Source: Enchytraeus crypticus (taxonomy: Eukaryota > Annelida > Clitellata > Enchytraeida > Enchytraeidae). From it: 64,000 nucleotides of DNA. The stretch lies in assembly GCA_905160935.1 (NCBI GenBank), contig CAJHZI010000510.1, forward strand, positions 636,001 to 700,000. The letters are read 5' to 3'. Positions 15,730-46,916 of the stretch are shown piece by piece; position 1 is the stretch's first letter; each line of letters starts with the position of its first letter. Both the position numbers and the translations under genes were made by a program. The notes below the pieces were generated by a model. That model was not told the origin of the DNA. It was given only the letters and a program-made list of their open reading frames with translations, and ran no database searches.

Positions 15730-15776
15730 TTTATTTCAATGACACCTTATTCTTGCATCCCAGTCACGTATTTATT
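15730..15776 (-). promoter_or_regulatory. Polyadenylation signals of the kinesin-ZW10 gene
   Basis: On the minus strand an AATAAA hexamer overlaps the stop (TGAATAAA, 15776-15771) and a second AATAAA lies about 40 bp further on (15735-15730). The second is the better placed. Confidence 0.6.
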
Positions 15777-16860: not shown

Positions 16861-19800
16861 CTGAAAAATAATAGCAAAGTTATGTTGCAAATGTTAGTCA
16901 TAAGGTGTAATAGATAAACAATGCAGAATGTATCAAAGTCCATCACACTGGATTTCAGTAACCAGTATGTCGATCTGACCGCAGTTATAAGATTTTATAT
17001 TTATTAATAAAGGTGTTTAAAGGTGTTTATTATGATCATGTAAAAATAATATTTTCTATTATGGCTGGAGCCAGTGGCGATATCGGTAAACTACTAGACC
17101 GCGATCAGTATGTGCGGGTCCAAATCCTGCGCTAGACCGTCACTGTCTTTGCTTTCGAGCGAGGAAACTGACGTTAAAATTAGCTTTTTTCTTTACGAGC
17201 AATTTTTATGACTACAAGATTGTACTCCATGTAATAAGCGAGTTTGAAACACCCGTCTCCTTATGGCGTAAAAGCTAAAGCTGGTAAAGCTAAGGTTAAC
17301 GTCAGTTTCCTCACTCGAAAGCGATGTCAGTCATTGTTGCTCAGATGCGAGTGAAGCCTCAAATCTTCTTCGGGTCTATTTTTTATTTTATGTACTTTTA
17401 TATTATCCAAGAAGTTATAGCGATGACGAGAGTTCAATAGAGTGCCACCGTCGTCAGTAATAACATCGAGCAGGGCATAATCAAGTGAATCAATCATATG
17501 AATATAACAGCGCACGGATGCAGTACACAGCGTACTGTTGGAAGTAAATTAACAACGTACAAACGCGCTAGGCGCATTAATATTGACAGATATTTTATTT
17601 CACGAAAATCACAATGACACCGTACACTATTCAGAGAATTACGTGAAGATTGACACACAGACCCGAAGGCTCTGACGCATGCCTAATAAGATTACAATTA
17701 ACTTAAAAACAGTTCACGGTACAAAATTGCAATTACTCATATCCAAAATAATGATAAATATGAAGTTAATAGATTTGGCGGTAAATAAAGAAACTATTTG
17801 TGTAAATATGTGCGTGTGTGACAGCGTGCTATTGCAAGCAGTAGGGATAGGTGACTAAAGTTTATCAGATATCATTAATAAAATAATATAAACAGTTTCG
17901 ATAAAAAATTACATACCCATTCCTCGATGATAGACATTCGTTGGTAACACCTGCCTCCATTGTTTACTTGCAGCATTCAATCTGTCAATCATTCTAAGCA
18001 CCGCCTCCTCCACATCAGAACCCTCATCCGTTATACAGACAAACTCCTCCCTATCTTTAAGCCCCGCCCCTGTCACACTTAAATCGTCAAACAGGCCACG
18101 CCTTAGTGACTCCAGATACTGCGTAAAGCTATCATTTCCATTACGACGCAATTTTTTCACTAGATTACTCATTGAAATGTCAGGGACGTCCCTGACATCA
18201 CTTCCCCTCCACCCACTGGATTTCCTCTGACTCTCCCCTACACTACTCACTCCAGGACTCGTTTCCCTGAAGGATCCCATAGATCTGGAACGATCCGGAC
18301 TGGGCAGCCGGTCGAAAGACGGAGACCTTCTAAAGATCTCTCGAAGACCCACAGCTGGACCATCTGGCGCTAGAGTGGCTCTGGTTGCGCTAGATCCAAG
18401 GTCAAGGTCAGGGTCAGGGGCGGGGCAAAGCTTGCGTTGAAAGGTTCTGTCGATAGTGATCAAGTGATGCGCCACATACATGTGGTTGTTGTGTAGTAGA
18501 GCTGTTAAACATACATACGGTTGTTGTGTAGTAGAGCTGTTAAACATACATACGGTTGTTGTGTAGTAGAGCTGTTACACATACATGTGGTTATTGTGTA
18601 GTAGAGATGTTAAACATATATGCGGTTTTGTGTAGTAGAGCCGTGAGCTTACACAGGAAGATGATGCAATGAATAATGGAGATTTAACAAAGAGATGATG
18701 CAGTGATTATCTAGCAAAAGAAAATTGTCTAATATACTTAGATATAAGACTTAAGTATGAGTAGCACTCTCACAATTCAAAAATGTTATTTTTAATTTAT
18801 GCGTCATATGCAAATTTTAAAAATATTAATTCAAGTCGAACGGATATACCAGAATCATAGGAATTCAACTACAGCGTACGATATATAACTACATTAACAC
18901 ATAAAATTCTATAAAATCTAAACCATCACACAGAAAGATTGCCTAGACGATTAATAAATTGACTGCACGGTTAATTATAATATTTATTGTTAATTTATTA
19001 ATTGATTAATTGATCGATTGCTTAATTTTTAATTTATTAATTGAATGAATGATTGACTAACGATTGATCAATTGACCGACAAATCGATCTATCGATTTAT
19101 TGACTAGAGAAGCTCTAATGACGTCCCTGACATGGCCTTATGGCGAGGAGCCAGACGTTAAATTCTTATTGATTGATTGGTTATATATTGATAATGTTAC
19201 CAGATGAGTAAACAGGATAGTTTTCTCAGGGAATGACGCCCCTGCCCAGTAAATGCTAGTCGAAGCTGAGGAAGGCATAGGGGACCCACCTCATCATAAG
19301 CAGAATCCCCCAAGTATAATAGTATATGAAAAGGAATGTTATATATGATTTAAAGATACACTCGTACGTGGACATGAAAAGGAAAGCAGAAGACAGAGAA
19401 GAGTGGAGGGGTTATATACCATGGACCTGCCAGTAGGCAGTGGACTAAGAGAGAGAATGTTACCAGCTAGTTGGGGCTGGGACAGCAGCAAGCTATCAGA
19501 GCGCTGAGGACTCGTGTCTTTGAACAATTCCACCATATCCTTGACCGCCTGACACAAATGTGTAGCCACCTGGTGGCTGGAATCCACTGCCTCACTCAGG
19601 TTATCATAGGCCAGGCACACCAGGTTTCTCACACTCGAACTACAGTCAATCCATTTTTATGTTCAACAATCAATCAATTAATCGATTAATTATATTTTTA
19701 GTTAGATATTAATTCCAGAAATTGCTAGAAATATGTAAACGAATGGAAAAGTCTCAATCCGGGATTGACTGATGATATGATTTGGGACATATATGATATG

Positions 19801-22800
19801 GGACAGAGAGGATTTGAGAGAGTCTATTCGTATCCCGATCCTAATTAAACTGGGATTCAAGAGAAGATGATGATGATGATTAGTTACATATTAATTTTGA
19901 ATTAATATTAATTAATTAATTAATTAATATATTTTTCGTTGTCCCTGTGTGATTCACAAAGTATCACACGATTCTTACGATTCATGTATGAAAGCTTTCA
20001 GAAGATTTTATTAAGATAGTGACGATTCCAAATCTCAAGAATTCTAATGCTGTCGAATGTTCAGAACACAGAATAATAATAATCTTAATAGAAATAATTA
20101 ATTCCGTATTAATGCCAATAAAAAAGCCAATCTATGTTAATATATGGCGAATTTATCTGCCAAAGAATTACAAATAAGTACTACAAATATAAAAAATAAT
20201 AGTACTAATAAAATAAATAAATAAATAAATAAAATACAAATACATATCGGCTGAGACCTGATTCGGCAAACAGGAAGCCGGTAGCTCTTGGTGGCGGTCA
20301 GTTCTCTGCAGACATTAACAAAAGCCAATCTCTCAGAGTGTTCCTTGCTGAGAGTCTCATCATCAGCACAGCTGTCATCACTCGATGAACTGATCGAATC
20401 CCTCCTTCCTCTCTCCATCTCTTCCATCTCATCCACTTCAACTTCATCAGTCCCTGTCAAAGGCTTGGAACTGAAAGTATCCGAAAATAGCATTTCGTAC
20501 TTTGAGCTTTCCTTTCTCTGGTCATCACATCCAACGACCACTGTTGGGATCTTGATCTTTGTGGTGGATTTCTTCGCAGAGTTGGCCAGTCTCTCGGCAG
20601 AGGTCAGGCAGGGACCTAGCGGTTGACAGCTAGATACTAGAACAGTCTGGATGAGATCAGAGCTGACGAGTCTGAGGGTTTGAAGGAGGAGCTCTCGACA
20701 TCTGAGGGAGCAGAACCTCTGGACGTGAGCGTCGAGGCAAGAGACGAGGTGGCTCTCAGCTGTGAGCAGGTTCTGCTCCATGAGCGTCCGCTCAAACTGC
20801 TCCGCCAGTGATGATATCTGAGCATAATATGATCGCATTTTCGTTCAGTATTCTTTTATATAGCATAACATATATATTTATTTATTTATTTTATATAACA
20901 TAACATAAATATCTTATTTTATAATAACATAACATTCTGTTATGTTTCCCCGTGTTATATCGTTTGAAGAATTTGACTAACCAGTGACTGCATGAGTCGT
21001 GGAAGGCGACTAAAGCACACACCAACGTCAGAAAGGGCATTCAGTTGGTGAGCGCCTGGGCTCCAGTAATTGCTACAAAACTTAAACGCATGGATAAACT
21101 TCAAAAAAATGAAAGTCTATTCGTGTCCTGACCCTGGTTGAACTGGGATTTCAGGGAAGGTGATGATGATGATAACATTCTGATATGTTACGTTATTATT
21201 CTTTTAAAATAAAGCACATGCCTAATTACTTCACCACTGCTCGCTGTTTCTGTTTTTATTTGTCTGATACTGAATAGCCTTACCAGTACATGTGAACTGC
21301 GCTGGGTTGTCCAGCCCTTACTAACATTTCAACTTAAATAAATTACTCACATCTTTTTTGAAGTGAAATAATGGAGAAAATAAGAAATATTATACAAATA
21401 ATGAAATAATAATATTATACTAGAAATATTATTGATATGAAAATTTACTGATCTTAATGACGTAATGGCTATTGAAGGCCTTAAAGCAAAAATGGTCTAC
21501 GTTTCAAATAAAAGCACAGCAACTTTCCGTATTTCCAGTCTGTCACTTCATATTGTGTGAATCGGTAGAAACAAAAGGTAGCAAATGCCTGATGTTAAAG
21601 AAACAGTAGCTAGAGTGGCACGTACCTTGCAGAAAGTTTTCCACGTGCACTTGGGATGTCTCAACACTCTCGCCAGACAGTTGACATACACCGAGTCGAT
21701 CATACGAGTGGAGATCAAATCTCCTATCAGAGTCATCAGGCTGATCTTTTCCATGTCCCTATCCGAGCTCTCGCATCCTGTCGACAAATCCCCTGTCTCC
21801 GCTGTTTTAAGTGCACCGTCTGACGTCATTTCTCCGGCGTTCTCAGTCTCCCGCACTTCAACAAGCTGTGATATAGTATTGGACGCTTCCCCATCCCTAG
21901 GATCTTTATTTTCGAAATTTAGGGATCCTTTCATCGAAAGTGGTGGATCCGAACTAAGCTTGGCGTTTGGAATTTCTTTCCGGTGAGACACGGTACAGTT
22001 AGAATTGGGCGGATCTTCCGCACGGGACTCCTGAGTGTGGAACTCAAGTCCTTTCACTCCCGAGGAAGATCCAGAGAGATCCGTTAAGTCGAAGGGTGGT
22101 ACAGAAGTACCAGTCGAATATTTTCCAGTAGTGGTTGATCTCTCAGCTTTCTTCTGATAGACAAGCAAATCCGAGTGATAGAAAACAGTGGAGGAATTAT
22201 AACTTCCGGCGGATACGTCGACCCCAGAAAGACTGCGATTCAGAAAGGAAAAGATGACCTCCAGTTTATGGAAAACCTCTTCCGGAGGTGGGCCCGGATT
22301 AGAGGTGGAATCTGGAAGCGATTCTTCATAGGAAGGAAGAGTCGTTATAATGGCGGCCGTTCGTTCGTCCTGCTCAACTGTTTGAATCAGGGTATTGCGG
22401 TTCTTAGCCAAGCGCTCAACGCAATATTCCATTAGCCTGTCAGCCAGTAGTCTCAAATGTCCGTCCAGCAGTCCCGTTCTACACATCGCTTCCAGGATTG
22501 AACAGCCTTTCTCCTTATTCTGACAAATATTAGTAACATTAAGTATAACCGGAAGTGTGACGCCAATGGACGGAATAGAATCCTGCTGGATACGCCAAGA
22601 GATCAGTCCATTCCAGGCATCAACAATCCGGTAGAGAGTTCTATCTCTAACTATGCCTATCTGAGTCCGGATTAAATCCCGAGCTTTTGAGATAAGTACA
22701 TCCTGTTTTCCTATAGTTCCCAAGGAGGCAAGTATGGAATCAATTTCTTCCAGATTTCTGACGGATCCCGCGTAATCTTCAGCTGAAAGATTTTTATCGA

Positions 22801-28800: not shown

Positions 28801-29843
28801 TCAGTTTCTTACAATAAAAGTTAATCATGTTTATCTATGTAATTCGTTAATGTTCGTTTTAGTTAACGTTAGAAAGGACTTTAGAAATGTAAATGATTTA
28901 GCTTGTTCGTACTTCAGCAGGAATACAAAGCAAAGTCGCAGGTTCAACGCCTGGTTGCGGCAACTCCAACGTTTTCTTCTTTACATCTGACTTGCTAACC
29001 AAAGGTGGTCTACAATGAAAATAAATTCAAAACAATTTTTATTAACTATGCCGTTAAAAAACTATTTATTTATTTAATAATTTATCTGTTTATATTCATA
29101 TTCTTCTCCTTTCGACTCGACATACTTGCGCTACCGTCACAAAGATAAATTAATATATCAGAATTAACGTTAGCGGTGATAATTAGAATAGGTTTACTCA
29201 TAGGTCACTGTATTTCTGAGATGGTTATATAACATATAAAGAAGCGAGTGGGCTGTAGTGTGTTTAACGTTAGGGTTCAGAAGCATAATGCTTCTCTTTC
29301 CACCGGGATCATTCTGAGACAGTTTAACAGTCATTTAAATCCTAGGAGAAAAACAAACGCGGGACATAAACTGTTCACTTACTTTTGTGTTACAATATCA
29401 CCGCATGATAATGGTGTTTTATTGTGAAGCTTCATTTGTTGTTCCCAGCCTTTTACTACCTCGATATATCGATCCTGTAATGTAAATAGAAATCGCATTA
29501 AAGCAATATATCAACTAGTTATCCAATATTGCAATTAATAGCGCTTAAACTAGAAATTGAGGTCTCAATAATGTTTTTTTCTTTCAATACATTTCTTACT
29601 GTTATGCACGAATTTTATCACAATTGATCCATCGTAAGGGCTAAACACTAGCAAACCCTAATACTGATTTAGGATGTGTAAATCATGATTTATGAAGCTG
29701 GTTAGGGTAGCCTAAACACATTAGCCACCTACTTGCCTACAATTACGATAAACTTAACATAAGTGTAGACAATTCTGCAGTGTTCAGGAAATTTATTGCG
29801 AGTATAATTGTATAGTATTTCACTATATCTATAAATATATACA

Positions 29844-29908
<65 letters not shown>

Positions 29909-35500: not shown

Positions 35501-36311
35501 CTGGTATCTAATCAATCAATAATCCACTGATCAATCAATAAGCTACAGATCAACAAATAATCCATAGATCAATCAATAGTCCATAGATAAATCAATAATC
35601 CAATAAACCAACATTCGGGCATCTAATCAACTATAATGCACATGTCAATAAAGCAATCAATCAATAGTTCAATAAATCAATAGCTTAATCAACAATTAAT
35701 GAATTAATCAACAGTATAGTATATAATCAACAACGATCCGTAGATCAATCGATAAATCAATCAATTCAATTAGCACATCGATCCATGCCAAACCTTTTTT
35801 AAAGAGAGAGTAGAAAAGAAAACAACATACAAGAAAGCTGATAAAATATTTTTAGAATTTAAGATATTTTGGTAAATTTTACATTCCGTTGCCATTTTAA
35901 TTTGTGCAAATTTTGTATAATCGCAGACTAACAAAGTATAGATATACGAGGATAAAGATAATACAACACTTTATATTGATATAGCACTAGTTTATAGTTT
36001 ACTCCAGTGGAGTATTGGAAACAGGAAGTGCTATAACTCACAGGATTGTGGACGTTCAGTTGGGACTTGAGGAAGGAGACCTGCAGTGTCAGTTCCTTGA
36101 TCTTCAAAACACTGGAATCCTACAACACCATCATCATCATCTTCATCATCATCATCGTCATCATCGTCATCATCATAATCATCATCCTATTTAACTAGGG
36201 TCGGAATGCCAATAGACCGCCAGTAGTTTATATATATTTCATTTAGTTTGTCAATATAATACACTATATCTATTCTTCCCGTACACGAAATAAGCGTTTT
36301 ATCTCTCTCTC

Positions 36312-36357
<46 letters not shown>

Positions 36358-39300: not shown

Positions 39301-42300
39301 TAGCCTATATATTAAAGTTACTGAAAGTATATTATATAGAGTTTAGATGGAGCCAATGTGAAGCGAGGATAAAATCAAGCGTCAGTTCCCTGGACACACT
39401 GAGAGAGAAAAATACTTTGAAAGAATGTCTCACCCAGAACAAGCGTTTTACAATTATATTACTGCATTTAATTATGCGAATTATTTTATTTCGAATTGTT
39501 ACCCCGTAATAACATCAAAATGCAAAAGTAATAATTAAATTAAAAATTTAGATGTCATATTTTGGTAGTAAGCAATCTAAGAACAATCTATAAATAAAAT
39601 AAAGCATTTAGACTTTCTTGAAAAATATAGATTTGAGCTCACGTGACTGAGCGCACGTGACCCACCAGTCTGAGAGGTCAGCTATTAATAGTCTGCTCGG
39701 GTTTTCCACTGGAACACCTTCCCTACAGGATGCCTGACTACAGCGTATGTCGTAGACGACGTGCGATTGGCTGGCGCGATGCAGACCACGTGACTTAGTG
39801 CTATGACGATGCTGATGACGTATTGAGCTGACCTTTGACAAAAAGGTCAATTCCTCAGTTGAATTGTTGAGGGAAAGAGAGGATAGCCCTAGAAAATAGA
39901 GAAAAATGGACAGAGTAAAAGATCAGTTTTCCTATAAGGGGTTACGATAATTATGTATCCCTCATACGTATTTCTTATCAGAATCCTGTATTGTACACGA
40001 GGTTCGAAACTAGGCTAGCGATATAGCTGACATCTCATGGAAAGTCCTAGATTTTACTACGACTGACTCGAACGGAAATAGAATTGGAAATAAAACATAA
40101 ACATGCATCTTTATAAAAACTCCGGATTTTAAGAAAAGATTCAACAACGTGTTGGTGAGACCTGATTGATCCACTAACTGTTGATGTATTCTTCGTTCCT
40201 AATGGAAAATTGACCCGGTTCTTTATTTAACAATATCGACTAGTTAAACACTAAGCCATAGAAACACAAGCATTTCGACAAGAATATCGGATTTTCTGAA
40301 GATAGCAACAACATCAATAATTACACTACTAGTTTTCAACAATACGAGATTGCTGACGAGGAAAAGAAAGATTCAAAAACGGTGCAAGATTTAAAAACCA
40401 GTTTGAATACAGCACTTACCATTCACCTGAGAGCCCAGCAACGGATGCTCTATCACAGACAGTTCTGTTGTTGTTGTTGCTCCACTCTCATCTCTCAAGA
40501 GATCTGTTAATTCTTCTCCTGCGACCCCTACAACACTGCATCATACGACACCATACGACTCCTACAACACTGCATCATACGACACCATACGACCCCTACA
40601 ACACTGCATTATGCGACACCATACGACCCCTACAACATTCCATCATGCGACACCATACGACTCCTACAACACTGCATAATGCGATACCATACGATATCAT
40701 AGAAAAAAAACACGATATCGTGCGATAGCATACAATACCTTACGCGAATTAATATGTGCTTGACTCGAATTCTGGGCTCGCCCGTCACTCTTATCGCCTT
40801 CGAGACGTGAAAGTGTCGTTAACATCAGCTTCACAGATTTTGTAAATTATGCGACACTTCAGAATGGTCTCAAATAGGAGATTGACTGATGATATGATGT
40901 AGGACAGAGAAGATTTCAGACAGTCTATTCGTATCCCAATTCTGGTTAAACTGGGATTCAAGGGAAGATGATGATGATGATGCGACACTCCGAAATATAA
41001 TGTGATATCACACGATATCGTATGATATCAATACAGTATCATGTGATACTCTACGATTTTATGCGATACCATATGATATCGCGTGATATTGTGTGATAAA
41101 TATATTTTTATACATCTAAAATACTGGTTAAGTTATTTCTAGTGTTAAACCTGATCTCAGTTAGAAACAGCTTCAGTCCCCCTGTATCCGCCAATGCTAC
41201 CAATTCCTAAAATAGAAAATAATAAAAATTATAACACTCATTTTAATGAAATGATCAACCATGCTGATATCTATCACTTTTAGTATGACATGTTTAAACC
41301 GTTTTCTGCGTGTTTGAGACATTTTCTGTTGAATTACTTCTACACGGCAATGAGAGGACTGATTTATAGGGGTATTGGTAAGTCTATTGATAAGAATGCC
41401 GATAAGGACACTGACAAGTATAAAGATATTGATAAAGAAGTTGATAAAGAAACTAATATTGATAAAGATATTGATACATAATTTGCTGCCGGGAAAGTCA
41501 GGCGATTTTAGGAGAGTCAAAGTCGTCACAGAAATTAAGTTTATCTACGTAATAAATCATAACTATAACGGCACACTGGGTCAGGAAGTCCAGATGCTTG
41601 TTTAAGACTCATTTCCTCCTTCCTCTCCATGTTTATTAGTTATCGTTGCCTTTTGATGGAGCATCAATTGTCGCCGGCGCGGATTTAAGAATAACCTTCC
41701 ATCACCCTGGGATTTTTTCCTTCCTAAGCTTTTACTAACACTCGGTCTTCCAAGGTGGTCACCCACAAAGTACTAACCGAGGTCGATGCAGCTTAACTTC
41801 GATAATTGACGCACAACTAAACCAAGTGTGCTAATACCGCCGTATAAGTCACACAGGGTGTGCGGAACTTCAATTCTGCAGCCTCTGGGTAACTCTTTTT
41901 ACAACACTTAACAATAAACTCTTCTCAGTATATATCTTACAACATATATCATCAAATAAATTCTTCTAAATGTATGTTAAATGAACAAACATCTTTAAGA
42001 GATAAAATTTTTACAACACGACACAGAATTACATCATTATGACTTCTTATTGTTATCAATTACATTAGTATTATTTTTAATCATGTAACACACTCTAAGT
42101 TACAAATCACGATCGTTTAAAAGCCCTCTGTAGTACAAAGTATTAACATTTATAGATGTGCCATAATGCTAGAACACTCTTTTGATAACGATAACTAAAA
42201 TATATGCCGATAAATTTAAAATATTATTACTAACCTTACAGAGCTGCTGAAGTATTCCGCCTTCATTCTGCAAAATAGCGACAGGATTGGAGATAAAGCA

Positions 42301-45300
42301 TTACAGACTGTTCTTTATCCGATTCTTCAATGAAACTAAATCTCTAAGCACTAGGAGTGTATGCATGTACAGTGCGGGAAGCTGTTTCACTAAACAGAGA
42401 TCTTAGATCTTAGGCTAAAGTATTATATAAACACATATTGGAGATAAAGCAAGATTGTTAGCGTAGGTTTCTAGTGATGCCTACAGTAAAAGAACCGTAT
42501 AGGCTCACTGCACGATTTCACCGCTGATTTCTTAGTTGTCCATTATTTAAAATTTTCCCTAGCGATATATCACCATAAATATCAAATTATTTATACCTAA
42601 TTTGATAACTACATACAAATACCGATTTCAAATTTTTCAGAGAAAATAGAAGCTGGTAACGCTAATGTTACCGTCAGTTTCCGCATTCGAAGCCAATGAA
42701 TACTAATAATAAGATGGATACTAATAAACTGATCAAATTCAACACACCTGTGACTGAAGATTTCCAAGCAACGTTTCAGTTTTTCCAGTTCCACTCTGAC
42801 CATAAAAGATGAGAGAAGCGTTGAGACCTTGTCTGGCGCACTCCAGCAAAACTCTAATCACCTGCGACAATGTATGAATGTAATGAAAGCTGTCGCTGCC
42901 AAGGTAACATTTTTATTAGTGTTTCTGTCATAGTTCTCAAATATTTATTTCTTCAAATATATTATAAAACTGATTAGCATAGCAGTAGTATCATTGATTA
43001 GAATTAATAGCATCAGTAGCAATAGTGGCGCTCTATTACAAGTACCTTCAGCAGTAAAAATTGAGTATCACCTCAGACTGTCCCATCGTATCACAACTAA
43101 AGATTGACCTGGAATCGAATCTTGCAGCTATGATCTGCGCGTCAAATGGACTAACTAACAAGCTATCTTCTCTAGTAATAATTTTGCATTTATGGAGTTT
43201 TCAGGTAAAAGCTAATAAAGCTAAGATTAACGTAAGTGTCGTCACTCGAAAGCGATGTCAGTGACGGGGGACCCAGGATTTTAACCTCGCACATACTGAT
43301 CCGCGGTCGAGTATCTTAACTACGTCGCAACAGGCTCCAACCAGTAGCATTACCACATCTGTTAAATTAGAATCGATGTAGAGAACAGATCCAATGAAAT
43401 AGGATATAGACAATAAGGTGGATTCTATTGGAGATCAGAGCGGCAGCACGGTACTGGTGTACTGTTTCTACAAACAAACTCTATTCACAGAACACAACCG
43501 GTGTAATTGTACGTGATTTCGTTCCTTAAGAGATGAAAGGAAACCGTGTTGAGTCCGGGAAGTTCAAAATAGACCAGCAGAAAACTGAAATGTTTCGAAA
43601 CATCCGGTGAAAGCAGAAGACTGTGGAATATACCTTTCTGAATACTCTTATCATGAATAATAATAATAGTAATAATAATATGGCTGTAGACAGTAGCTAC
43701 GTCAGTAGGATACTCGACCACGGATCAGTATTTGCGGGTTAAAATCCTGGGCTCTCCCGTTACTGATATCGCTTTCGAGAGAGAAAACTGATTATATACT
43801 GAGCTCGCCCGTCACTGACGTCGCTTTCGAGTGAGGAAACTGACGCTAATCTCAGCTTTACTTTTAAAAGACTACGTATTTTACTAGAGAAGACCAGCTG
43901 ATTAGAGGCTAGCAATTGAGATGGTATCAGTGGATTGGTCGAAGTTGTGCTCAATGTGACAAATGATCGCCGGCAGTGGGTACGAATATGAATCTTGAAC
44001 CATTCGCACCAAAATTCCAAACAAGAAGCAAAGGTTTCTGAAGCCTTCATCCCACGTAGACTTGAAATAAATTCTCGTATCCGTATTTAGGAAGTATAAC
44101 TGAAACGGTAGAGAAACAGATGCAGGCTGAAGTTAGGTATATTAGACGATTTAAAGATCCACTTATACGAGGAAATGAAGAGGAAAGCGGAAGACAGAGA
44201 AGAGTGGAGGCGTTATATACCATGGACCTGCCAGTAGGTAGTGCGTTAAGAGAGAGAGAACTCAAACGGGCATAGACTGTTGTGATCTAGACTATAGCGG
44301 AAGATTCTGACATATTTAGAGGAGCGAGTTATGCAACAGAGTTGAGAGAGTGAGGCTAATAAATGCCATTCAGCAACCATTGAACAGCCTGCACTGCAAG
44401 CATCTACAGCAAATACTCCATCATCAAACATTATCCTGCATCTAGAACTCTTCCCGGCTGTGTACTAGGAAAAACAAATAACACGCATTATAGTGGAATG
44501 ACCAATCATGTTGTTATCTATCACTTTTAATACCAGTTCTTTAAACTGGGCTTGTGACACATATCTCGTGGGCCACGGACCACGAGATATGTGTCACAAA
44601 CCACGGGTCACGGGCCACGAGCCACGAGCCACGAGCCACGGGCCACGGGCCACGGGCTACAAGAAACTGTTTAGTACTTCATCAGACTATTAACGACTCT
44701 AACATAACATTCTATGAGAACTGAAACAAGCCTTCAGGAAGGGCCAAGATACTCAAACTCAGAACGACGACATTTGCTTTATATCTTTTCCGGTAACTAT
44801 GCTGTTAACTGCTAATATAAAATGCTCAGAGAATACGCAACTCAAAGTAAATGCCTTATAGTCGATTTTATGACATCCCATTAGATAGCTATCGACGGAT
44901 TTAGCGAGGGGATAATCACTTCTGAATTTATTTAGTATTTTTTGTTACCAATCGCTTACTCTGTTTTCTCAACGAGTCATACCGAATGCATTGGGCTCAG
45001 GTAAACAAGATAATCCAACGAATTTCACGACAAACGACCAGGCACTGCATAGTTTACTTATTATCCATAAATCAACACATTTTTAATTTATTGATTTATC
45101 GGAGTTATAGGTGAAACACAACCTGGAAGAGTTTTCAACTGAACGCAGTAAAAGATAAAAGGACTGGAAACAAATAGAAGATACCTCGGGGTGAAGCGTT
45201 AGCAGAGCCGAGAGTCTAAAGTGCCGATGATTAGATAATAGAACTTGTGGAAGCCGCTCGAGATTGAAAAATATAAGAGCGAGAGATTGACGGCGAGAGA

Positions 45301-45315
45301 GAGAGAGAGGTAGAA

Positions 45316-45347
<32 letters not shown>

Positions 45348-45426
45348 GGAGAGTTAGAAGGAAAAGAGAGAGGGGGAGTACGAGACGGATGAGGAGAGTA
45401 GACGGTGAAAGAGAAATAGAGACTCT

Positions 45427-45460
<34 letters not shown>

Positions 45461-45549
45461 GAGATGGAAGGGAAAGGGAGAGAGGGAGAACGATAGAGAT
45501 GAAGAGAGTGGACAGAGAGAGGGAGAAATAGAGAGATAGAGACAGAGAC

Positions 45550-45598
<49 letters not shown>

Positions 45599-46916
45599 GA
45601 CAGAGACAGAGATAGATGGAGCTAGTGAAAGAGAGGAGAGAGAGATGAACTACAGCAGAGCCAAATATCAGTTTAAAATATTAAATATTTTAAGGTTAGA
45701 ATAGGGTTAGAAAAATGAGAGAATTTCTTTAGAAATTCTCGCATTTTTCTAACCCTATTCTAACCTTAAAATAAAATGATTATATTTGCCCATCTCTACC
45801 AGAGGAAACTCAAGATACATTAACACGATAACAATCATACAAGTAACATTAAGCAACCTTTGTGCCATGGACCTACCATTGTACGGGGCATCGACTAGAA
45901 AGCATCAACAATCTACGAAAAGCGGCCACTTATAATCTCTCTGCATGCAATATAGACTCTCAGTATCCGGAGCTTACCTTGGAATGTATGGATAGATCCT
46001 CAGCAGGACTCGACTCTCCGTGAGAGGGTTCCTGAGTGGAAGAATAACAGGCATGGAAAGGAAAACTGTCGAATTCCTTCAAACAACTATTTTCTCTTCT
46101 TTCCTCTTCAGATTCTATTCTCGTCTCCACAGGAAGTACCCTCTGTAGGAAATAGAAAACAATTCTAAGTTATTAACAAAATCTCGACAAAAAAGAAACA
46201 ACATCTCGATCAAAAAGAAAGATTTTAGTAGATACAGTTTAGGCTTGGCCTTGGTTCTATAGTGCTCGATGCTGCCATTGCCGACCGTAGCACACTAATT
46301 AACAGAAATTATTGTTGTTGCTGTTGGTTTTAATGTTACGCTTCTATAGTTATACTCATCATCGTCATCATCTTCCCTTGAATCCTAGTGTAACTAGAGT
46401 CGGGATTCGAATAGACCTTCTTTTCCATTCGTTTTAGAGAAAGTTGTAGCAATTTATGGAGCCTATGGCTCACCAATTACAGTTAATAACAAAAATTAAT
46501 AATTATTACATAATAATTACTGTTAATATTAATCAATAAACAATTAGTTTAAAATTAACAGTTATTAATTAATTGAAGTCCTTCGACTCCCTACGTAAAA
46601 TCTAGATCAAAACCAACGTCAGAAAGAGAATTCGGCTGGCGAGCGCCTAGGCTTCAGAAATTGCTACAAAAACTGAAACGAATGGATATTTCTGGTATTT
46701 AAGGGAAAAGGGAATTGACTGAGGATATGGTGTGGGACAAAGAGGACTGGAGAAAGTCTATTCGTATCCCAACCCTGGTTAAACTGGGATTTAATGGAAG
46801 ATGATAATTAATTAAAGTCCTACGATTCACGTTAGTTACAACTACATGCAAATAGTCTAACCTTTAGATGTACCGTATTCCCCACCACGCGGACGATTTC
46901 TTCATCAGCTGCAGCG
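15776..46916 (-). CDS. Kinesin-3-like motor fused to ZW10 (23-exon model, 5' end missing)
   Basis: Joining the minus-strand exons listed separately gives one uninterrupted frame of 2,920 codons including the stop, with every exon-exon phase matching. Order in the protein: kinesin head (46916-36556), a short coiled coil and linker (36119-28913), a disordered Ser/Pro/Arg-rich region (27947 to about 23690), then ZW10 from an N-terminal helical segment to the true C-terminus (about 23690-15776). Kinesins move on microtubules. ZW10 is the RZZ/NRZ subunit that recruits dynein to kinetochores and tethers vesicles at the ER. No stop, last exon or polyadenylation signal is seen between the two halves. 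A single fusion gene is my inference. Two neighbouring genes joined by chance of phase is the alternative. The first kinesin exon or exons (about 40-60 residues) were not found. Confidence 0.6.
17061..17200 (+). mobile_element. tRNA-derived SINE (family A) in a ZW10 intron
   Basis: TGGCTGGAGCCAGTGGCGAT, ATCGGTAAACTACTAGACCG, GCGGGTCCAAATCC (B box), TCGAGCGAGGAAACTGACGT. A truncated inverted copy (AACGTCAGTTTCCTCACTCG) follows at 17282-17335 and a family-E piece lies at 17425-17485. Confidence 0.8.
17917..18501 (-). CDS. ZW10: ZW10 exon (LHNNHMYVAHHL)
   Basis: Acceptor TTTAACAG before 18501 (phase 1), donor ATGG|GTATGT after 17917 (phase 1). With the previous exon it reads PQLAALLHNNHMYVAHHL, an almost exact match to the signature stretch of vertebrate ZW10 (PQLAA, then HNN, MYIAHHLLT). 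It ends QWRQVLPTNVYHRGMG, matching the QDVLPVNIYCKAMG region. A Ser/Arg-rich, probably disordered insertion with several SP motifs occupies the middle. It contains a perfect 20-bp palindrome at about 18177-18196. Confidence 0.9.
18502..18650 (-). repeat. Tandem copies of the ZW10 3' splice site
   Basis: Four further copies of a unit of about 35 bp (minus strand TGTTTAACAG|CTCTACTACA, then CAACAACCGTATG) lie directly upstream of the true acceptor at 18502. Each carries the polypyrimidine-AG and the first 15 or so coding bases of the exon. Copies 2 and 3 are almost identical to the real site; the outer ones have changed (GTGTAACAG, TTTAACATC). Confidence 0.85.
19116..19180 (+). mobile_element. 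SINE 3' domain with (TTGA)n tail
   Basis: TGACGTCCCTGACATGGCCT, TATGGCGAGGAGCCAGACGT, TAAATTCTTATTGATTGATT, as in the composite SINE at 9605. Upstream (18650-19115) is AT-rich intron with ATTGATTG-type tracts and no gene. Confidence 0.65.
19195..19458 (+). mobile_element. Chimeric short element with LINE family-B tail
   Basis: A non-LINE head (TTTTCTCAGGGAATGACGCC, CCAGTAAATGCTAGTCGAAG, GAGGAAGGCATAGGGGACCC, GCAGAATCCCCCAAGTATAA) is joined to the family-B 3' end (GATTTAAAGATACACTCGTA, GAAGAGTGGAGGGGTTATAT, ATGGACCTGCCAGTAGGCAG, ACTAAGAGAGAGA). The same head-tail junction occurs at 28085-28375 and 61845-62095, so it is a real non-autonomous family. Its tail ends about 6 bp from a ZW10 splice donor. 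Confidence 0.75.
19464..19639 (-). CDS. ZW10: ZW10 exon (VRNLVCLAYDNL)
   Basis: Acceptor GACTGTAG before 19639 (phase 2), donor AGCTG|GTAACA after 19464 (phase 1). It encodes SVRNLVCLAYDNLSEAVDSS, LCQAVKDMVELFKDTSPQRS and LSQPQLA, matching the SVKKLMELAYQTL, NIFHLFHDV and LPQLAA stretch of ZW10. Confidence 0.88.
19720..19890 (+). mobile_element. Family-C SINE (5'-truncated)
   Basis: CCAGAAATTGCTAGAAATAT, AACGAATGGAAAAGTCTCAA, GACTGATGATATGATTTGGG, GAGTCTATTCGTATCCCGAT, CTGGGATTCAAGAGAAGATG, then (ATG)n. Confidence 0.75.
20258..20817 (-). CDS. ZW10: ZW10 exon (central domain)
   Basis: Acceptor ATGCTCAG before 20817 (phase 0), donor AATCAG|GTCTCA after 20258 (phase 2). It begins SSLAEQFERTLMEQNLL and ends SYRLPVCRI. 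The latter, joined to the next exon, matches the LPTCRISESVKKLMELAY block of ZW10. An acidic Ser/Glu-rich loop (VEVDEMEEMERGRRDSISSS) probably forms a flexible insertion. The donor GTCTCA is not a strong consensus. Confidence 0.85.
20940..21182 (+). mobile_element. Family-C SINE, near full length
   Basis: Head CCCCGTGTTATATCGTTTGA, GACTAACCAGTGACTGCATG, CACCAACGTCAGAAAGGGCA, TTCAGTTGGTGAGCGCCTGG, GCTCCAGTAATTGCTACAAA, then the conserved tail TATTCGTGTCCTGACCCTGG, TTGAACTGGGATTTCAGGGA, (TGA)n. From 21182 to 21547 there is only AT-rich intron. Confidence 0.8.
21626..22927 (-). CDS. ZW10: ZW10 exon (N-terminal helical region)
   Basis: This is a 434-codon, phase 0-0 exon with acceptor TTTTTTTCAG before 22927 and donor CAAG|GTACGT after 21626. 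Residues about 20-80 (YNHMLTAVSKFISIYRLIQQ, NLSAEDYAGSVRNLEEIDSI) align with the EFSTAIEEYNCALTEKKYV and AQRLEEAQ region of ZW10. LYRIVDAWNGLISWRI matches LGEEWQKLIVWKF. PPPEEVFHKLEVIFSFLNRS matches SPSEVFTKIRLVLEVL. The end, LIGDLISTRMIDSVYVNCL, matches LGDMIWEDLSECLIKNCL. A disordered insert of about 130 residues sits between the last two blocks. Confidence 0.88.
22928..23511. other. Intron, no feature seen
   Basis: AT-rich, with no open frame, no repeat family and no promoter-like or start-codon exon. This matters because a separate ZW10 gene would have to begin here or within the upstream exon. Confidence 0.7.
23512..25692 (-). CDS. Giant exon: disordered linker ending in the ZW10 N-terminal helix
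   Basis: This is a 727-codon, phase 0-0 exon (acceptor ATTACAG before 25692, donor AGAAAG|GTAGGA after 23512). Most of it is Ser/Pro/Thr/Lys-rich and lacks hydrophobic clusters (SPSSVGDVASTSPDVGEESG and similar), so intrinsically disordered. An 11-residue repeat (TKVVDSTTKGV type) occupies 24370-24545. The last 65 or so residues are helical: LGKLFDQLATEFGHMEDHVD, IRRREEAESKERSVTSRMMD, SLQKRVDSVKPVVEQIRK. They match ZW10 residues of about 20-85 in length and hydrophobic pattern (LGTRISRL, VEEIKGEV, LITQVDKLSEDIDLLKSRI). No methionine sits at the ZW10 boundary. Confidence 0.75.
26026..27320 (-). CDS. Disordered linker exon with RSME-type motif
   Basis: 1,295 bp, phase 1 in (acceptor TTTGCAG), phase 0 out (donor ATCAGG|GTAAGT). 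It is Ser/Pro/Arg-rich with candidate phosphosites (PPRSPIKTVSYIF, SLSPCLSPIGF). Around the middle it encodes an arginine-rich helix plus RRYKSMESAPDTEMRILQEC, which repeats a motif of the previous exon (RRHRSMERPSEAEINFIL). It ends SEQLKFEIR. No catalytic domain is recognised. Confidence 0.75.
27474..27680. repeat. (CAT)n/(CAC)n microsatellite in intron
   Basis: Imperfect CATCATTATCATCG grading into a CACCACCATCACCACCATCA block immediately upstream of the exon end at 27710. Confidence 0.9.
27710..27947 (-). CDS. Linker exon with basic RSME motif
   Basis: Phase 0 in (acceptor GGTTGCAG), phase 1 out (AGTG|GTAGCC). It encodes GLAIRRHSSGAAMLNNETSS, a Gly-rich stretch, then a basic run ERKKRLSKRRHRSMERPSEA followed by EINFILNSNS. 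Together with the next exon it forms a duplicated motif of the form R-x-S-M-E-x-P/A-x4-E-I/M-x-x-I-L. Confidence 0.7.
27962..28380 (+). mobile_element. Family-E repeat followed by chimeric family-B-tailed element
   Basis: At 27965-28060: ATTAGAGTGCTACAGTCATC and ATCGAGCACTATTGAGACAA. At 28085-28375: TTTTCTCAGGGAATGACGCA, GAAGCTGAGGAAGGCATAGG, AATTTCAACAGCCACTCGTA, CTGCCAGTAGGCAGTGCACT, AAAAGAGAGAGA. No gene is seen from 28380 to 28900. Confidence 0.75.
28913..29009 (-). CDS. Small linker exon of the kinesin-ZW10 model (tentative)
   Basis: Acceptor CATTGTAG before 29009 (phase 2), donor GCTGAA|GTACGA after 28913 (phase 0). It is the only piece I found that restores phase between 29383 and 27947. 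It encodes PPLVSKSDVKKKTLELPQPG and VEPATLLCIPAE. The complementary strand carries a Pol III B-box-like GGTTCAACGCC, so the exon may be derived from a tRNA-like repeat. Confidence 0.45.
29383..29474 (-). CDS. Linker/coiled-coil exon
   Basis: Acceptor ACATTACAG before 29474 (phase 0), donor AAAA|GTAAGT after 29383 (phase 2). It encodes DRYIEVVKGWEQQMKLHNKT and PLSCGDIVTQ, a predicted helix followed by a turn. Confidence 0.6.
29835..29990 (-). mobile_element. (TA)n plus inverted family-B LINE tail
   Basis: About 65 bp of pure TA at 29838-29905, then the complement of the family-B 3' end (ACTCTTCCATGTCTTCCGTT, TTCCTCTTCATGTATACATA, TTTAAATCCTCTAGCAATAC). Confidence 0.75.
30034..30096 (-). CDS. 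Coiled-coil exon after the kinesin head
   Basis: Phase 0-0, with acceptor TTATTACAG before 30096 (a second ATTACAG lies 6 bp on) and donor TCACAG|GTTTTC. It encodes ITELTDSWIEKWTQKVANSS, reminiscent of the conserved L-x4-W-x-x-K helix that follows the neck in kinesin-3 proteins. Confidence 0.6.
30490..30820 (+). mobile_element. LINE family-B fragment
   Basis: Degraded ORF and tail: AGAATGGAAGAGATTAACTG, GAGGAGGTCTTGAGGAGAGT, GATAAATACTATAAGAAATG, AGAGTGGAGGCGGCATATCC, TGCCAATAGGCAGTGCATTA, AGAGAGAC. Stops and deletions throughout. Confidence 0.75.
31030..31396 (+). repeat. Imperfect tandem repeat leading into a splice acceptor
   Basis: Three copies of a unit with the core TAGGAACTAGGGAC and TATGGACATCC (about 31165-31215, 31285-31330 and 31350-31396), plus two GGAACTAATAAGGTAACGAA copies. 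The last unit ends in GGCTCCAG, the acceptor of the exon at 31397. Confidence 0.7.
31397..31533 (+). CDS. Last exon of a single-pass membrane protein (partial gene)
   Basis: Acceptor CGGCTCCAG then a phase-1 entry. The 44 residues begin RQDNRPWFSRYAS, continue as a strong transmembrane segment (IVLMGLIIVISLFSIVVVIC) and end ILGVPYSKRL with TGA at 31531-31533. High GC against its surroundings supports coding. No upstream exon of the same gene was found within the window. It is antisense within an intron of the kinesin-ZW10 model. The protein is not recognised. Confidence 0.55.
31740..32010 (+). repeat. 45-bp minisatellite, about six copies
   Basis: The unit is TATGTGTTATTTGTTACATC plus GAGTGTTAGACGCTAGTGTT plus AGTTG; internal copies are identical. 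Looser TTAGTTGT-type copies extend back to about 31560. Confidence 0.9.
32385..32558. repeat. (TA)n microsatellite
   Basis: TA runs interrupted by AGTATA, ACAGTATA and ACTGTACATGTA. It forms the left flank of the foldback element and probably was its insertion target. Confidence 0.9.
32559..33413. mobile_element. Foldback MITE with arms of about 380 bp
   Basis: An 855-bp palindrome. The left end, CACTGTGTTTTTTATAACTG, and the right end, CAGTTATAAAAAACACAGTG, are inverted copies, and homology continues inward (ATTGTTTTAACAATA, GACCGATGTTCTTGAAATTT, AACTTTTAATGCATGCATTG) to an 80-bp GC-rich centre at about 32945-33025. The element is flanked by TATATA on both sides, consistent with target duplication in TA repeats. 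It has no transposase. Arm divergence (substitutions, small indels) shows it is not recent. Confidence 0.85.
33608..33750 (+). mobile_element. tRNA-derived SINE (family A)
   Basis: AGCCAGTGGCGACGTCGGTA, AGATACATGACCGCAGATCA, CCAAATCCTGGGCTCGCCCG, ATCGCTTTCGAGTGAGGAAA, CTGGCGTTAACCTTAGCTTT. The GCGGGGTT before CAAATCC is deleted, so the B box is broken. It sits about 50 bp upstream of the vWA exon. Confidence 0.8.
33797..34365 (+). CDS. vWA-domain last exon (partial gene)
   Basis: Acceptor AACTGCAG with phase-1 entry, then 188 codons to TAG. The first 75 residues are low-hydrophobicity helical sequence. From about residue 75 it reads FIDGLTNAGAKPKYEDALNA, TVGYDFARIVALVGGGETSQ, KAQELADGLTAQTIQVVGVA and REAIYLI, the second half of a von Willebrand factor A domain. 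The metal-binding DxSxS half would be in an earlier exon, which is not in the window. The last codons (RFNKT, stop) are the first unit of the following minisatellite. It lies antisense in the kinesin-ZW10 intron. Confidence 0.7.
34347..34705 (+). repeat. 39-bp minisatellite starting inside a stop-containing exon end
   Basis: Nine units of AGGTTTAACAAGATTTAGAG plus ACAGCATGAGATCTGTGAT. The first unit supplies the last five codons and the TAG of the vWA exon. Confidence 0.92.
34828..34965 (-). mobile_element. LINE family-B 3' end, inverted
   Basis: (TC)n, TTAGTGCACTGCTTACTGGC, AGGTCCATGGTATATAGCGC, TTCATGTCCACATACGAGTG. Confidence 0.75.
34970..36000. repeat. AT-rich DNA with degenerate (ATCA)n
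   Basis: ATCAATCAATAATCC-type tracts at 35500-35770 within unique sequence. No gene is seen on either strand. Confidence 0.65.
36042..36119 (-). CDS. Coiled-coil exon following the kinesin neck
   Basis: Phase 0-0, acceptor GTTGTAG before 36119, donor AATCCT|GTGAGT after 36042. It encodes DSSVLKIKELTLQVSFLKSQ and LNVHNP, a heptad-type helix (L-x2-I-x3-L-x2-V) where kinesins have their neck or first coiled coil. Confidence 0.75.
36122..36420. repeat. Family-C tail (minus) and (CT)n microsatellite
   Basis: (CAT)n, ATTTAACTAGGGTCGGAATG at 36125-36215 is an inverted family-C 3' end directly upstream of the exon at 36119. It is followed at 36300-36420 by a long CTCTCTCTCT tract. Confidence 0.8.
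36556..36653 (-). CDS. Kinesin motor exon: last beta strand and helix
   Basis: Acceptor TACGACAG (phase 1 in), donor AATCAG|GTAAAT (phase 0). It encodes VSDARDDYTATLSTLTFASS and ISRVVNSVAINQ. This corresponds to the kinesin signature VSPSDxNYDETLSTLRYASR followed by the neck-proximal NAVINE segment typical of kinesin-3. Confidence 0.85.
37324..37446 (-). CDS. Kinesin motor exon: HIPYRD and SLGGNS
   Basis: Phase 1-1, acceptor TCGTCCAG before 37446, donor CGCTT|GTGAGT after 37324. It encodes RRRSIHIPYRDTSLSLLLKQ and SLGGNSVTYLLA, the conserved loop 12/alpha-5 microtubule-binding region (H-V-P-Y-R-D-S-x-L-T-x-L-L) and the SLGGNS turn of kinesins. Confidence 0.9.
37478..37524. repeat. Perfect short-loop hairpin
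   Basis: ATCAATTTATCAGTGAAGCA and its complement TGCTTCACTGATAAATTGAT flank a 4-6 base loop. An inverted family-C SINE fragment follows at 37560-37625 (CACCAACCGAATGCCCTTTC), then (TTATCAATTAGTCAAGCAATC) repeats to 37710. Confidence 0.85.
37972..38063 (-). CDS. Kinesin motor exon: INRGL helix after switch II
   Basis: Acceptor TTTTGTAG (phase 2 in), donor TTTAG|GTTAGT (phase 1 out). It encodes QDTTALGVQRIRAQSINRGL and TGLHNIVKAL, matching the kinesin alpha-4 stretch (G-x-R-L-K-E-G-x-N-I-N-K-S-L, LGxVIxAL). Several basic and acidic switch II-helix residues are replaced. Confidence 0.8.
38090..38345. repeat. (AATC)n microsatellite
   Basis: Degenerate AATCAATCAATTAATC tracts. They directly precede the 5'-truncated LINE. 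Confidence 0.9.
38363..39265 (+). mobile_element. 5'-truncated LINE, RT C-terminal half
   Basis: Starts inside RT motif B (a TGA stop in front of QGGVLSPTLFCIYVDNL), then SYGSFMYADDLVLLAPTVAE (motif C) and a thumb region (IAVPSLLYAIEALNLNKSEI), ending at 39137. The 3' end TTTTGGTGAAATAAAGATTG matches that of the LINE at 12630-14925. It is the best-preserved RT fragment here (about 226 open codons). Confidence 0.9.
39666..39827 (-). CDS. Kinesin motor exon: degenerate switch I and switch II
   Basis: Acceptor AAAGGTCAG before 39827 (phase 2 in), donor GACTG|GTGGGT after 39666 (phase 2 out). It encodes HRASQSHVVYDIRCSQ, where kinesins have N-x-x-S-S-R-S-H-x-x-F-x-I, and SRLLIADLSDW, where they have L-x-L-V-D-L-A-G-S-E. 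The strand order and spacing fit a kinesin, but the switch I SSR and the switch II Gly and Glu are gone. Both phases agree with the neighbouring exons. Confidence 0.72.
40162..40198 (-). CDS. Small kinesin motor exon
   Basis: 37 bp, acceptor TTCCATTAG before 40198 (phase 1 in), donor ATCAG|GTCTCA after 40162 (phase 2 out). It encodes TKNTSTVSGSI and restores the frame between 40420 and 39827. It would form the shortened segment between the EHPLLG loop and switch I. It rests mainly on phase and splice consensus. Confidence 0.5.
40420..40493 (-). CDS. Kinesin motor exon: EHPLLG
   Basis: Donor AATG|GTAAGT after 40420 is strong; the 5' boundary (TCTCTTGAG before 40493) is uncertain. It encodes TELSVIEHPLLGSQVNG. 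V-R-E-H-P-x-L-G-P-x-V-x-G is characteristic of kinesin-3 heads, which places this motor in that family. A Thr run from (CAA)n precedes it. Confidence 0.7.
40500..40730. repeat. Minisatellite upstream of a kinesin acceptor
   Basis: About five copies of ACCCCTACAACACTGCATCA plus TACGACACCATACG. On the minus strand it immediately precedes the EHPLLG exon. Further CGATATCATACGAT-type copies occur at 41000-41090. Confidence 0.8.
40765..40990 (+). mobile_element. Family-A SINE 3' half and family-C SINE
   Basis: 40769-40845: TCTGGGCTCGCCCGTCACTC, GTGAAAGTGTCGTTAACATC. 40860-40985: GAATGGTCTCAAATAGGAGA, TTGACTGATGATATGATGTA, AGTCTATTCGTATCCCAATT, CTGGGATTCAAGGGAAGATG, (ATG)n. Confidence 0.75.
41151..41206 (-). 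CDS. Kinesin motor exon
   Basis: Acceptor TATTTTAG before 41206 (phase 0), donor ATCAG|GTTTAA after 41151 (phase 2). It encodes ELVALADTGGLKLFLTEI. The LKLFLTEI strand is where kinesins read V-x-V-S-Y-L-E-I-Y-N-E. The usual Y-N-E is not present. Confidence 0.65.
41228..41310 (+). repeat. Family-F dispersed repeat
   Basis: TGAAATGATCAACCATGCTG, ATATCTATCACTTTTAGTAT, CATGTTTAAA. It recurs at 44485-44545 and 50040-50115 with about 85% identity by eye. Nature unknown. Confidence 0.6.
41588..41870 (-). mobile_element. 5S rRNA-derived SINE (SINE3 type), second copy
   Basis: Inverted relative to 8985-9275 and collinear with it. The minus strand reads CGAAGTTAAGCTGCATCGAC, CTCGGTTAGTACTTTGTGGG, TGACCACCTTGGAAGACCGA, then the body TTAGTAAAAGC, AAGGAAAAAATCCCAGGGTG. 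The 5S A/IE/C boxes are intact to the eye. Confidence 0.85.
42235..42267 (-). CDS. Small kinesin motor exon
   Basis: 33 bp, phase 0-0, acceptor TTTTGCAG, donor TGTAAG|GTTAGT. It encodes NEGGILQQLCK, equivalent to the G-I-I-P-R-x-x-x-x-L-F helix after the P-loop. Confidence 0.7.
42650..42705 (-). mobile_element. Family-A SINE 3' fragment
   Basis: AACGCTAATGTTACCGTCAG, TTTCCGCATTCGAAGCCAAT, the inverted family-A tail, about 40 bp from the P-loop exon. Confidence 0.6.
42748..42861 (-). CDS. Kinesin motor exon: P-loop
   Basis: 114 bp, phase 0-0, acceptor TGTCGCAG before 42861, donor TCACAG|GTGTGT after 42748. It encodes GLNASLIFYGQSGTGKTETL, an exact kinesin P-loop context (G-x-N-x-x-x-x-x-Y-G-Q-T-G-S-G-K-T), with all P-loop residues conserved. 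This is the strongest single piece of evidence for a kinesin head. Confidence 0.92.
43205..43345 (-). mobile_element. tRNA-derived SINE (family A)
   Basis: Inverted full-length copy: GGAGCCTGTTGCGACGTAGT, TAAGATACTCGACCGCGGAT, GAGGTTAAAATCCTGGGTCC (B box mutated), TCGCTTTCGAGTGACGACAC. Confidence 0.8.
43675..43870 (+). mobile_element. Family-A SINE with duplicated 3' domain
   Basis: One full copy (GTAGCTACGTCAGTAGGATA, CTCGACCACGGATCAGTATT, CGGGTTAAAATCCTGGGCTC, TCGCTTTCGAGAGAGAAAAC) runs straight into a second tail (GAGCTCGCCCGTCACTGACG, TCGCTTTCGAGTGAGGAAAC, TGACGCTAATCTCAGCTTTA). Tail duplication or nested insertion. Confidence 0.75.
44115..44265 (+). mobile_element. LINE family-B 3' end
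   Basis: CAGGCTGAAGTTAGGTATAT, TAGACGATTTAAAGATCCAC, GCGGAAGACAGAGAAGAGTG, ATGGACCTGCCAGTAGGTAG, GTTAAGAGAGAGAG. It still encodes part of LGILDDLKIHLYEEMKRKA. Confidence 0.8.
44557..44668. repeat. Perfect hairpin followed by a GCCACGAGCCACGG repeat
   Basis: TTGTGACACATATCTCGTGG and its complement flank an 8-base loop. Right after it come about nine GGGCCAC/GAGCCAC heptamers. From 44670 to 45280 no gene is seen. Confidence 0.85.
45285..45650. repeat. (GA)n-rich microsatellite cluster
   Basis: GAGAGAGAGA tracts interrupted by GATAGAGATAGAGACAGAGA and by TAGAAGGAAAAGAG blocks. Purine-only strand over most of 350 bp. Confidence 0.92.
45690..45775. repeat. Near-perfect hairpin with arms of about 40 bp
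   Basis: TTTTAAGGTTAGAATAGGGT, TAGAAAAATGAGAGAATTTC and its complement are separated by 4 bases (TTTA). One mismatch by eye (GAG/CGC position). Confidence 0.9.
45978..46142 (-). CDS. Kinesin motor exon (N-terminal part)
   Basis: 165 bp, phase 0-0, acceptor TTCCTACAG before 46142, donor CCAAG|GTAAGC after 45978. It encodes RVLPVETRIESEEERRENSC, LKEFDSFPFHACYSSTQEPS and ends DLSIHSK. The FDSFPFHACY segment stands where kinesins have F-x-F-D-x-V-F. It is followed by the P-loop exon, with phases matching. Confidence 0.7.
46250..46430 (-). repeat. Inverted family-E repeat and family-C tail
   Basis: 46250-46330: TCTATAGTGCTCGATGCTGC, CACTAATTAACAGAAATTAT (family E, minus). 46355-46430: (CATCAT)n, CTTCCCTTGAATCCTAGTGT, AGTCGGGATTCGAATAGACC (family-C 3' end, minus). 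Confidence 0.65.
46590..46812 (+). mobile_element. Family-C SINE, near full length
   Basis: ACCAACGTCAGAAAGAGAAT, GCGAGCGCCTAGGCTTCAGA, AATTGACTGAGGATATGGTG, CTATTCGTATCCCAACCCTG, AAACTGGGATTTAATGGAAG, ATGATAA. Confidence 0.8.
46862..46916 (-). CDS. Most upstream kinesin exon identified
   Basis: 55 bp, acceptor TATCTCGCAG before 46916 (phase 2 in), donor CTAAAG|GTTAGA after 46862 (phase 0). It encodes AADEEIVRVVGNTVHLK, plausible for the first beta-hairpin of a kinesin head (x-x-V-x-V-x-x-x-x-V-x-L). The start codon exon lies upstream and was not found; it should supply about 20-40 residues with the V-R-V-R-P strand. Confidence 0.6.

Follow-up and report, generated by a model that had tools for sequence, protein, structure and literature searches.

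The locus analysed here raises the question of whether a kinesin-3-like motor and ZW10 are encoded by one gene, and how such a gene relates to the conventional ZW10 of the cell. The window, i.e. the whole stretch of 64,000 nucleotides that was analysed, corresponds to C417:636001-700000 in the Enchytraeus crypticus genome, which was searched with Pfam profiles across its 802 contigs (524 Mb). The original prediction joined 23 exons and 2,920 codons into a single frame. Re-examined with a second locus, on contig C194, as guide, the one-frame join from kinesin to ZW10 with AG/GT borders still holds, while the model itself is reduced to 20 exons (46916-15776, minus strand) encoding 2,878 aa plus a stop codon. 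A motif search from 46.9 to 56 kb did not locate its first coding exon. The matrix used for splice scores is a rough one, based on generally known splice-site preferences, and the training set of the coding score comprised exons of the same genes and neighbouring plus-strand frames. The exons, numbered in the order of the gene, are as follows.

46862..46916, minus: W1, start of the motor core; second among the coding exons, judged by homology to C194 exon 2, with which it shares phase 1/0; weak similarity (p=0.05)
45978..46142, minus: W2, motor; AG/GT scores 6.5/7.7; shares phase 0/0 with C194 exon 3; no significant similarity (p=0.35)
42748..42861, minus: W3, P-loop GQSGTGKT; tblastn with C194 E=8e-4, 44% identity; Pfam Kinesin 1.2e-5 on the open frame, under the cut-off
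42235..42267, minus: W4, motor microexon of 33 bp; length and phases equal those of C194 exon 5
41151..41206, minus: W5, motor beta-strand before DLL; picked for phase; donor weak (0.5); alone p=0.28, with the start of W6 p=0.0006
40420..40535, minus: W6, motor, EHPLLG; shares phase 1/1 with C194 exon 7; acceptor picked with C194 in view
39666..39888, minus: W7, motor, altered switch I (ASQSH) and switch II (DLSDWQ); p=0.0002 against C194 exons 8 and 9; AG/GT 7.9/6.3
37972..38063, minus: W8, motor, around helix alpha-4; shares phase 1/1 with C194 exon 10; acceptor picked with C194 in view
37324..37446, minus: W9, HIPYRD to SLGGNS; tblastn with C194 E=0.055; open frame matches Pfam Kinesin at 1.7e-6, under the cut-off; phase 2/1 as in C194 exon 11
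36556..36653, minus: W10, ATLSTLTFAS; 98 bp and phases equal those of C194 exon 12
36042..36119, minus: W11, neck coil; shares phase 0/0 with C194 exon 13; p=0.005
30034..30096, minus: W12, pre-FHA helix ITELTDSWIEKW; top of 1,001 candidates against C194 exon 15; shuffle p=0.00015; donor weak (0.9)
27710..27947, minus: W13, end of the pre-FHA helix, then linker; top of 1,001 candidates against C194 exon 16; shuffle p=0.013; alternative in-frame donor at 27806
26026..27320, minus: W14, linker, 431 codons; splice scores 8.1/7.3, open frame; no Pfam match
23512..25692, minus: W15, 727 codons, linker and (about the last 62 codons) ZW10 N-terminal helices; gap-free alignment to C194 exon 24 up to a shared phase-0 intron; weak similarity
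21626..22927, minus: W16, ZW10 N-terminal/middle domain; Zw10_middle 2.1e-11; tblastn with C194 2e-8
20258..20817, minus: W17, ZW10 middle domain; tblastn with C194 E=0.001
19464..19639, minus: W18, ZW10_C; 176 bp and phases equal those of C194 exon 26; acceptor weak (-1.5, at 19639)
17917..18501, minus: W19, ZW10_C, HNNHMYVAHHL; tblastn with C194 2e-13; ZW10_C 1.7e-22 on the joined protein
15776..16860, minus: W20, ZW10_C2 and a low-complexity insert, stop codon; ZW10_C2 6.8e-23; AATAAA at 15776 and 15735

Gene models at the two loci

The joined window protein matches Kinesin (PF00225) at 9.4e-42 in its head, followed by Zw10_middle (5.9e-14) and ZW10_C (1.7e-22); ZW10_C2 is found on the last open frame (6.8e-23). 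Thus the three ZW10 families occur in order, as they do on C194. The N-terminal region of the ZW10 part has no Pfam match and its similarity is weak; this copy of ZW10 also carries long low-complexity inserts. Between head and ZW10 lies a linker, about 1,150 residues long, that has no Pfam match and looks disordered by eye. The 727-codon exon (25692-23512), earlier taken to be coding with ZW10 N-terminal sequence at its 3' end, is confirmed as coding: at its composition the chance of finding it free of stops is about 2e-18, and the other five frames hold 19-67 stops. The weakest parts of the model are the exons at 41206-41151 (p=0.28), 46142-45978 (p=0.35) and 46916-46862 (p=0.05), and the acceptor at 19639 (-1.5).

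Two small exons of the earlier model were dropped in favour of better joins. The exon at 28913-29009 is unnecessary, as 30096-30034 joins 27947 directly in phase 0, and that at 40162-40198 was replaced, together with its next exon, by the single exon 39888-39666, which has better splice scores and matches C194 exons 8 and 9. In the intron between W7 and W8 lies a plus-strand reverse-transcriptase fragment (38418-39137; RVT_1 6.9e-12).

The gene model on C194 is complete. It comprises 29 exons (C194:245082-203460, minus strand) running from ATG to stop in a single frame of 1,768 aa, and all 28 introns have GT/AG borders and leave the frame unbroken. Its Pfam domains follow in the order Kinesin (3.8e-109), FHA (1.1e-7), Zw10_middle (1e-18), ZW10_C (4.4e-26) and ZW10_C2 (4.8e-29), and the kinesin part consists of motor, neck, FHA and, by eye, a coiled coil. 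The P-loop, switch I and switch II are all canonical. The best PDB matches of the head are KIF1A (7e-126; 55% identity over the motor) and KIF13B (1.5e-122), and it is 60% identical over 571 aa to what we take to be the human KIF16B sequence. The ZW10 part matches human ZW10 (PDB 7qpg) at 2.7e-79, in four stretches spanning human residues 18 to 778. KIF16B ends in a PX domain; no such domain was found in the C194 model by Pfam at E values up to 0.1.

Comparison of the two models shows that all 16 paired introns have the same phase, and that three exons are of equal length (33, 98 and 176 bp). The agreement in phase at W5, at the acceptors of W6 and W8, and at the donor of W13 is not independent evidence, since these boundaries were chosen with C194 or the frame in view. 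The join across the 6-kb intron (36042 to 30096), about which doubt had been expressed, was addressed with 1,001 exon candidates on the minus strand in the interval 36041-25693 (splice scores >0, 36-400 bp). The best match to C194 exon 15 was 30096-30034, with a score of 44 compared to 25 for the next distinct candidate and up to 32 in a plus-strand control (shuffle p 0.00015). For C194 exon 16, the highest-scoring candidate begins at 27947, with 32 compared to at most 21 in the plus-strand control (shuffle p 0.013). Both lie in the correct order and phase relative to C194 exons 15 and 16, and these top matches carry the kinesin past the 6-kb intron and into the first exon of the linker, so that the join is now supported. 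On the opposite strand of the same intron there is a 211-aa open frame (33730-34365, plus strand) without Pfam match, von Willebrand A-like by eye, which may be a nested gene or a piece of one.

ZW10 paralogues and the kinship of the kinesin heads

Three ZW10-type loci were found over the cut-off in the genome with the ZW10 C-terminal family (PF22766), on C124, in the window (C417) and on C194. Only C124 matches Zw10_N (PF06248), and its exon pieces translate as a conventional ZW10. The kinesin profile gave at least 134 matches, and C124 is not represented among the matches listed. In the window and on C194, i.e. on different contigs, ZW10 lies downstream of a kinesin-3 head, with both parts oriented alike. 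The window ZW10 part is therefore a paralogue and not the conventional ZW10 of the cell, which sits on C124; the description of its C-terminus as that of the authentic ZW10 has to be corrected, and the window cannot hold the only ZW10. RINT1 has one match in the genome.

Over 579 gap-free columns of four sequences, with that of C124 pieced together from translated exons, some of which have provisional ends, identity to human ZW10 was 37.8% for C124, 32.5% for C194 and 27.3% for the window, while the window and C194 share 31.4%. Informative sites joining the ZW10 parts of the window and C194, in the comparison with C124 and human ZW10, numbered 26, versus 9 and 12 for the other splits. The ZW10 introns of both copies recur in C124. 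In the region covered by Zw10_N in C124, both fused copies can be aligned to it by position, an intron being shared, and weakly by sequence.

The kinesin-3-like character of the head joined to ZW10, as originally proposed, is supported in both copies by the PF00225 matches and by the nearest structures, which for the window head are KIF13B (1.6e-36) and KIF1A (5e-35). In the alignment the window head keeps the P-loop GQSGTGKT, while switch I is changed from SSRSH to ASQSH and switch II from DLAGSE to DLSDWQ. A scan of exon sequence for FHA gave no match in the joined head as far as W13, nor in W14 or W15. Residues of the P-loop and of switches I and II are required for ATP hydrolysis by kinesins and, since both switches are altered, the window copy probably does not walk; its head is probably a pseudo-motor. 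The original view of it as a plus-end motor is thus doubtful for this copy, given the switches and the FHA that was not found; the complete, canonical motor is that of C194.

The position of the window head among kinesins was examined in a tree with 11 other loci from 77 match rows (C252, C597, C513 and others being left out) plus KIF1A and KIF13B; a coverage filter dropped none. The window head is 28-33% identical to C194, C450, C483, C364, C355, C468, KIF1A and KIF13B alike, and FastTree places it beside C468 with a branch length of 2.0 and a support of 0.75. It is too diverged for placement in the kinesin tree, including beside C194.

Intron positions are more informative on the relation between the two heads. 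The C194 motor has introns at residues 182, 252, 338 and 371, and the window has all four in the same phase. Their presence in 10 other kinesin loci was judged from match edges, an intron being scored as absent where a match runs through the site with at least 4/9 identities on each side, a procedure that leaves many cells undecided. All four introns are absent in each of the four loci that group with KIF1A/KIF13B (C483, C364, C355 and C468). Introns 252, 338 and 371 are absent in 8, 7 and 6 of the 10 loci, respectively, with an edge only in C450 and the rest undecided. Intron 182 is absent in 4/10, and has an exon edge in C450, C421, C405 and C617. Five loci (C421, C405, C617, C417b and C440) do not group with KIF1A/KIF13B in the tree, and possibly fall outside kinesin-3. 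The C450 kinesin (C450:1433000-1449000) is 67% identical to C194 over 233 aligned residues and has match edges at the special introns of C194. Searches with PF06248 and PF22766 gave no ZW10 match on its contig, and this kinesin is possibly the unfused relative. No PX match was found within 200 kb of a listed kinesin match, a search that a PX domain split over short exons could escape. Among the matches listed, only C359 and C454 carry both PX and kinesin, at distances of 206 kb and 2.0 Mb.

One gene or two

The gene order at the two loci, the open frames, the intron phases, the domains and the altered motifs are observations; that each locus produces a single mRNA is inferred from them. The same gene order would also arise from two adjacent genes, a kinesin-3 and a ZW10 paralogue, lying head to tail and duplicated as a block, with the shared frame an accident of splicing phase. 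On C194, the donor of exon 23 is weak (0.9) and a stop in the same frame follows about 10 codons beyond it, so that this exon could be a last one; ATTAAA occurs at 210998, and exon 24, the first with ZW10 sequence, contains an in-frame ATG. The gap between the two exons, however, is only 466 bp and lacks AATAAA. In the window, in-frame ATGs occur inside W13, W14 and W15, another (27965) stands just before W13, and from a further one, at 23041, an open frame passes the acceptor without a stop and enters exon 22927-21626 (W16). The last of these makes the earlier statement, that there is no room for another first exon, too strong as worded, yet the product of such a start would omit the ZW10 N-terminal helices. 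A single exon encodes those helices together with part of the linker, and the first exon of the linker begins with kinesin-like pre-FHA sequence, both of which speak against two genes. Frame and phase also fit at each join of both models. Two separate genes are accordingly considered quite unlikely, if marginally less so in view of the ATG at 23041, and the join of kinesin-3 to ZW10 is very probably real.

A decaying pseudogene of the C194 fusion would account for the altered motor motifs of the window copy, for the FHA and first exon that were not found, and for its very long branch. A neutral relic this diverged should, however, carry stops, whereas the 20 exons have none, including stop-free exons of 727, 434 and 431 codons; the splice sites are usable and the ZW10 domains score above the cut-off. 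This makes decay very improbable. The reading preferred here, with considerable confidence, is that of a chimaeric gene in which ZW10, nearly complete, forms the tail of a KIF16B-like kinesin-3; the copy in the window is diverged, whereas that on C194 has an intact, canonical motor. Kinesin exons would once have been spliced into a ZW10 gene near its N-terminal coding exon, and the fused gene would then have been duplicated once. One fusion followed by duplication appears to be the simplest account, because the two copies share their motor introns and the informative sites of their ZW10 parts favour this grouping (26 versus 9 and 12).

Proposed function and surroundings

The ZW10 parts of the fused copies resemble human ZW10 (PDB 7qpg) and differ from it in being preceded by a kinesin. 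The C194 copy shares the complete kinesin-3 motor, neck and FHA with KIF16B, KIF1A and KIF13B, but has a different tail, ZW10; the window copy differs from KIF16B also in its altered switch motifs and in that an FHA was not found. Kinesin-3 proteins with lipid-binding tails are known, such as KIF16B with PX and STARD9 with START. The fused copies likewise combine a motor with one C-terminal cargo module, which in their case is a subunit of a tethering complex and not a lipid-binding domain. ZW10 would be a new tail for kinesin-3, one that is a complex subunit, and the window adds a probable pseudo-motor paralogue. The original remark that no kinesin-ZW10 fusion has been described agrees with the literature searched, a body of work with most subscription papers and preprints outside its scope. 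In a 2010 inventory of kinesins, the word 'zw10' occurs 0 times in the main text (PMC2867816).

Complex membership, motility and function are predictions from these domain combinations. The C194 product would be a plus-end motor with ZW10 as a permanent cargo adaptor, moving NRZ-type tethers (ZW10, RINT1 and NAG), or membranes held by them, along microtubules. The window product would not walk; it partly keeps the P-loop, the microtubule-facing helices and the neck, and is more likely to be a microtubule-binding or regulatory form of ZW10. RINT1 and dynamitin bind to residues 1-170 of human ZW10, and NAG or ROD is the likely partner of its C-terminal part (PMC4206994). A kinesin attached to the N-terminus would therefore place a motor beside the RINT1/dynamitin-binding region.

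A role in membrane traffic is favoured for the fused proteins. The less likely alternative is that they act mainly at kinetochores, as an RZZ-type complex with its own motor head, which is compatible with the fusion itself. ZW10 also forms RZZ and recruits dynein via dynamitin (PMC4206994). Set against this is the nature of the C194 head, a transport-type kinesin-3 with FHA that resembles what is taken to be human KIF16B (60% over 571 aa), and a mainly kinetochore function is regarded as rather unlikely. A fuller scenario is plausible and is put forward tentatively: a KIF16B-type plus-end kinesin of an annelid lineage may have gained nearly a whole tethering subunit as its tail, and one of the duplicates may have turned into a pseudo-motor ZW10 with a linker of about 1,150 residues, whose head may bind microtubules without walking on them; the active copy might be anchored or antagonised by it.

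The usual view is that kinesins and dynein-recruiting tethers meet via separate interactions. If the above scenario is true, a single chain would combine motor and tether, and would include the part of ZW10 that recruits dynein. In human cells, 12 kinesin knock-downs suppress the Golgi fragmentation caused by loss of tethers, two of them for ZW10 and COG3 and ten for ZW10 only, with KIF14 among the ten (PMC6687757). Its authors read this as a tug-of-war between tethers and kinesins (PMC6687757). KIF16B showed no suppression in that work (PMC6687757). A kinesin welded to ZW10 suggests a direct partnership of kinesin and tether somewhere in animals, and offers a means to test it.

Beyond the fused gene, the window contains open frames on the plus strand (50857-57118) that start with MGQQSS and include a polyproline stretch; they appear formin-type by eye, and five pieces tried gave no Pfam match. 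Contig C802 is mitochondrial, with nad3-nad2-cox1-cox2-atp8-cox3 (genes named by eye) on one strand, an order that is the ground pattern of annelids. Close to the end of the window (58393-61583) lies a 3.2-kb tandem array with a 42-bp unit in 76 copies (97% matches), in which several frames of either strand are open, so that it might pass for a gene of 1,000 codons.
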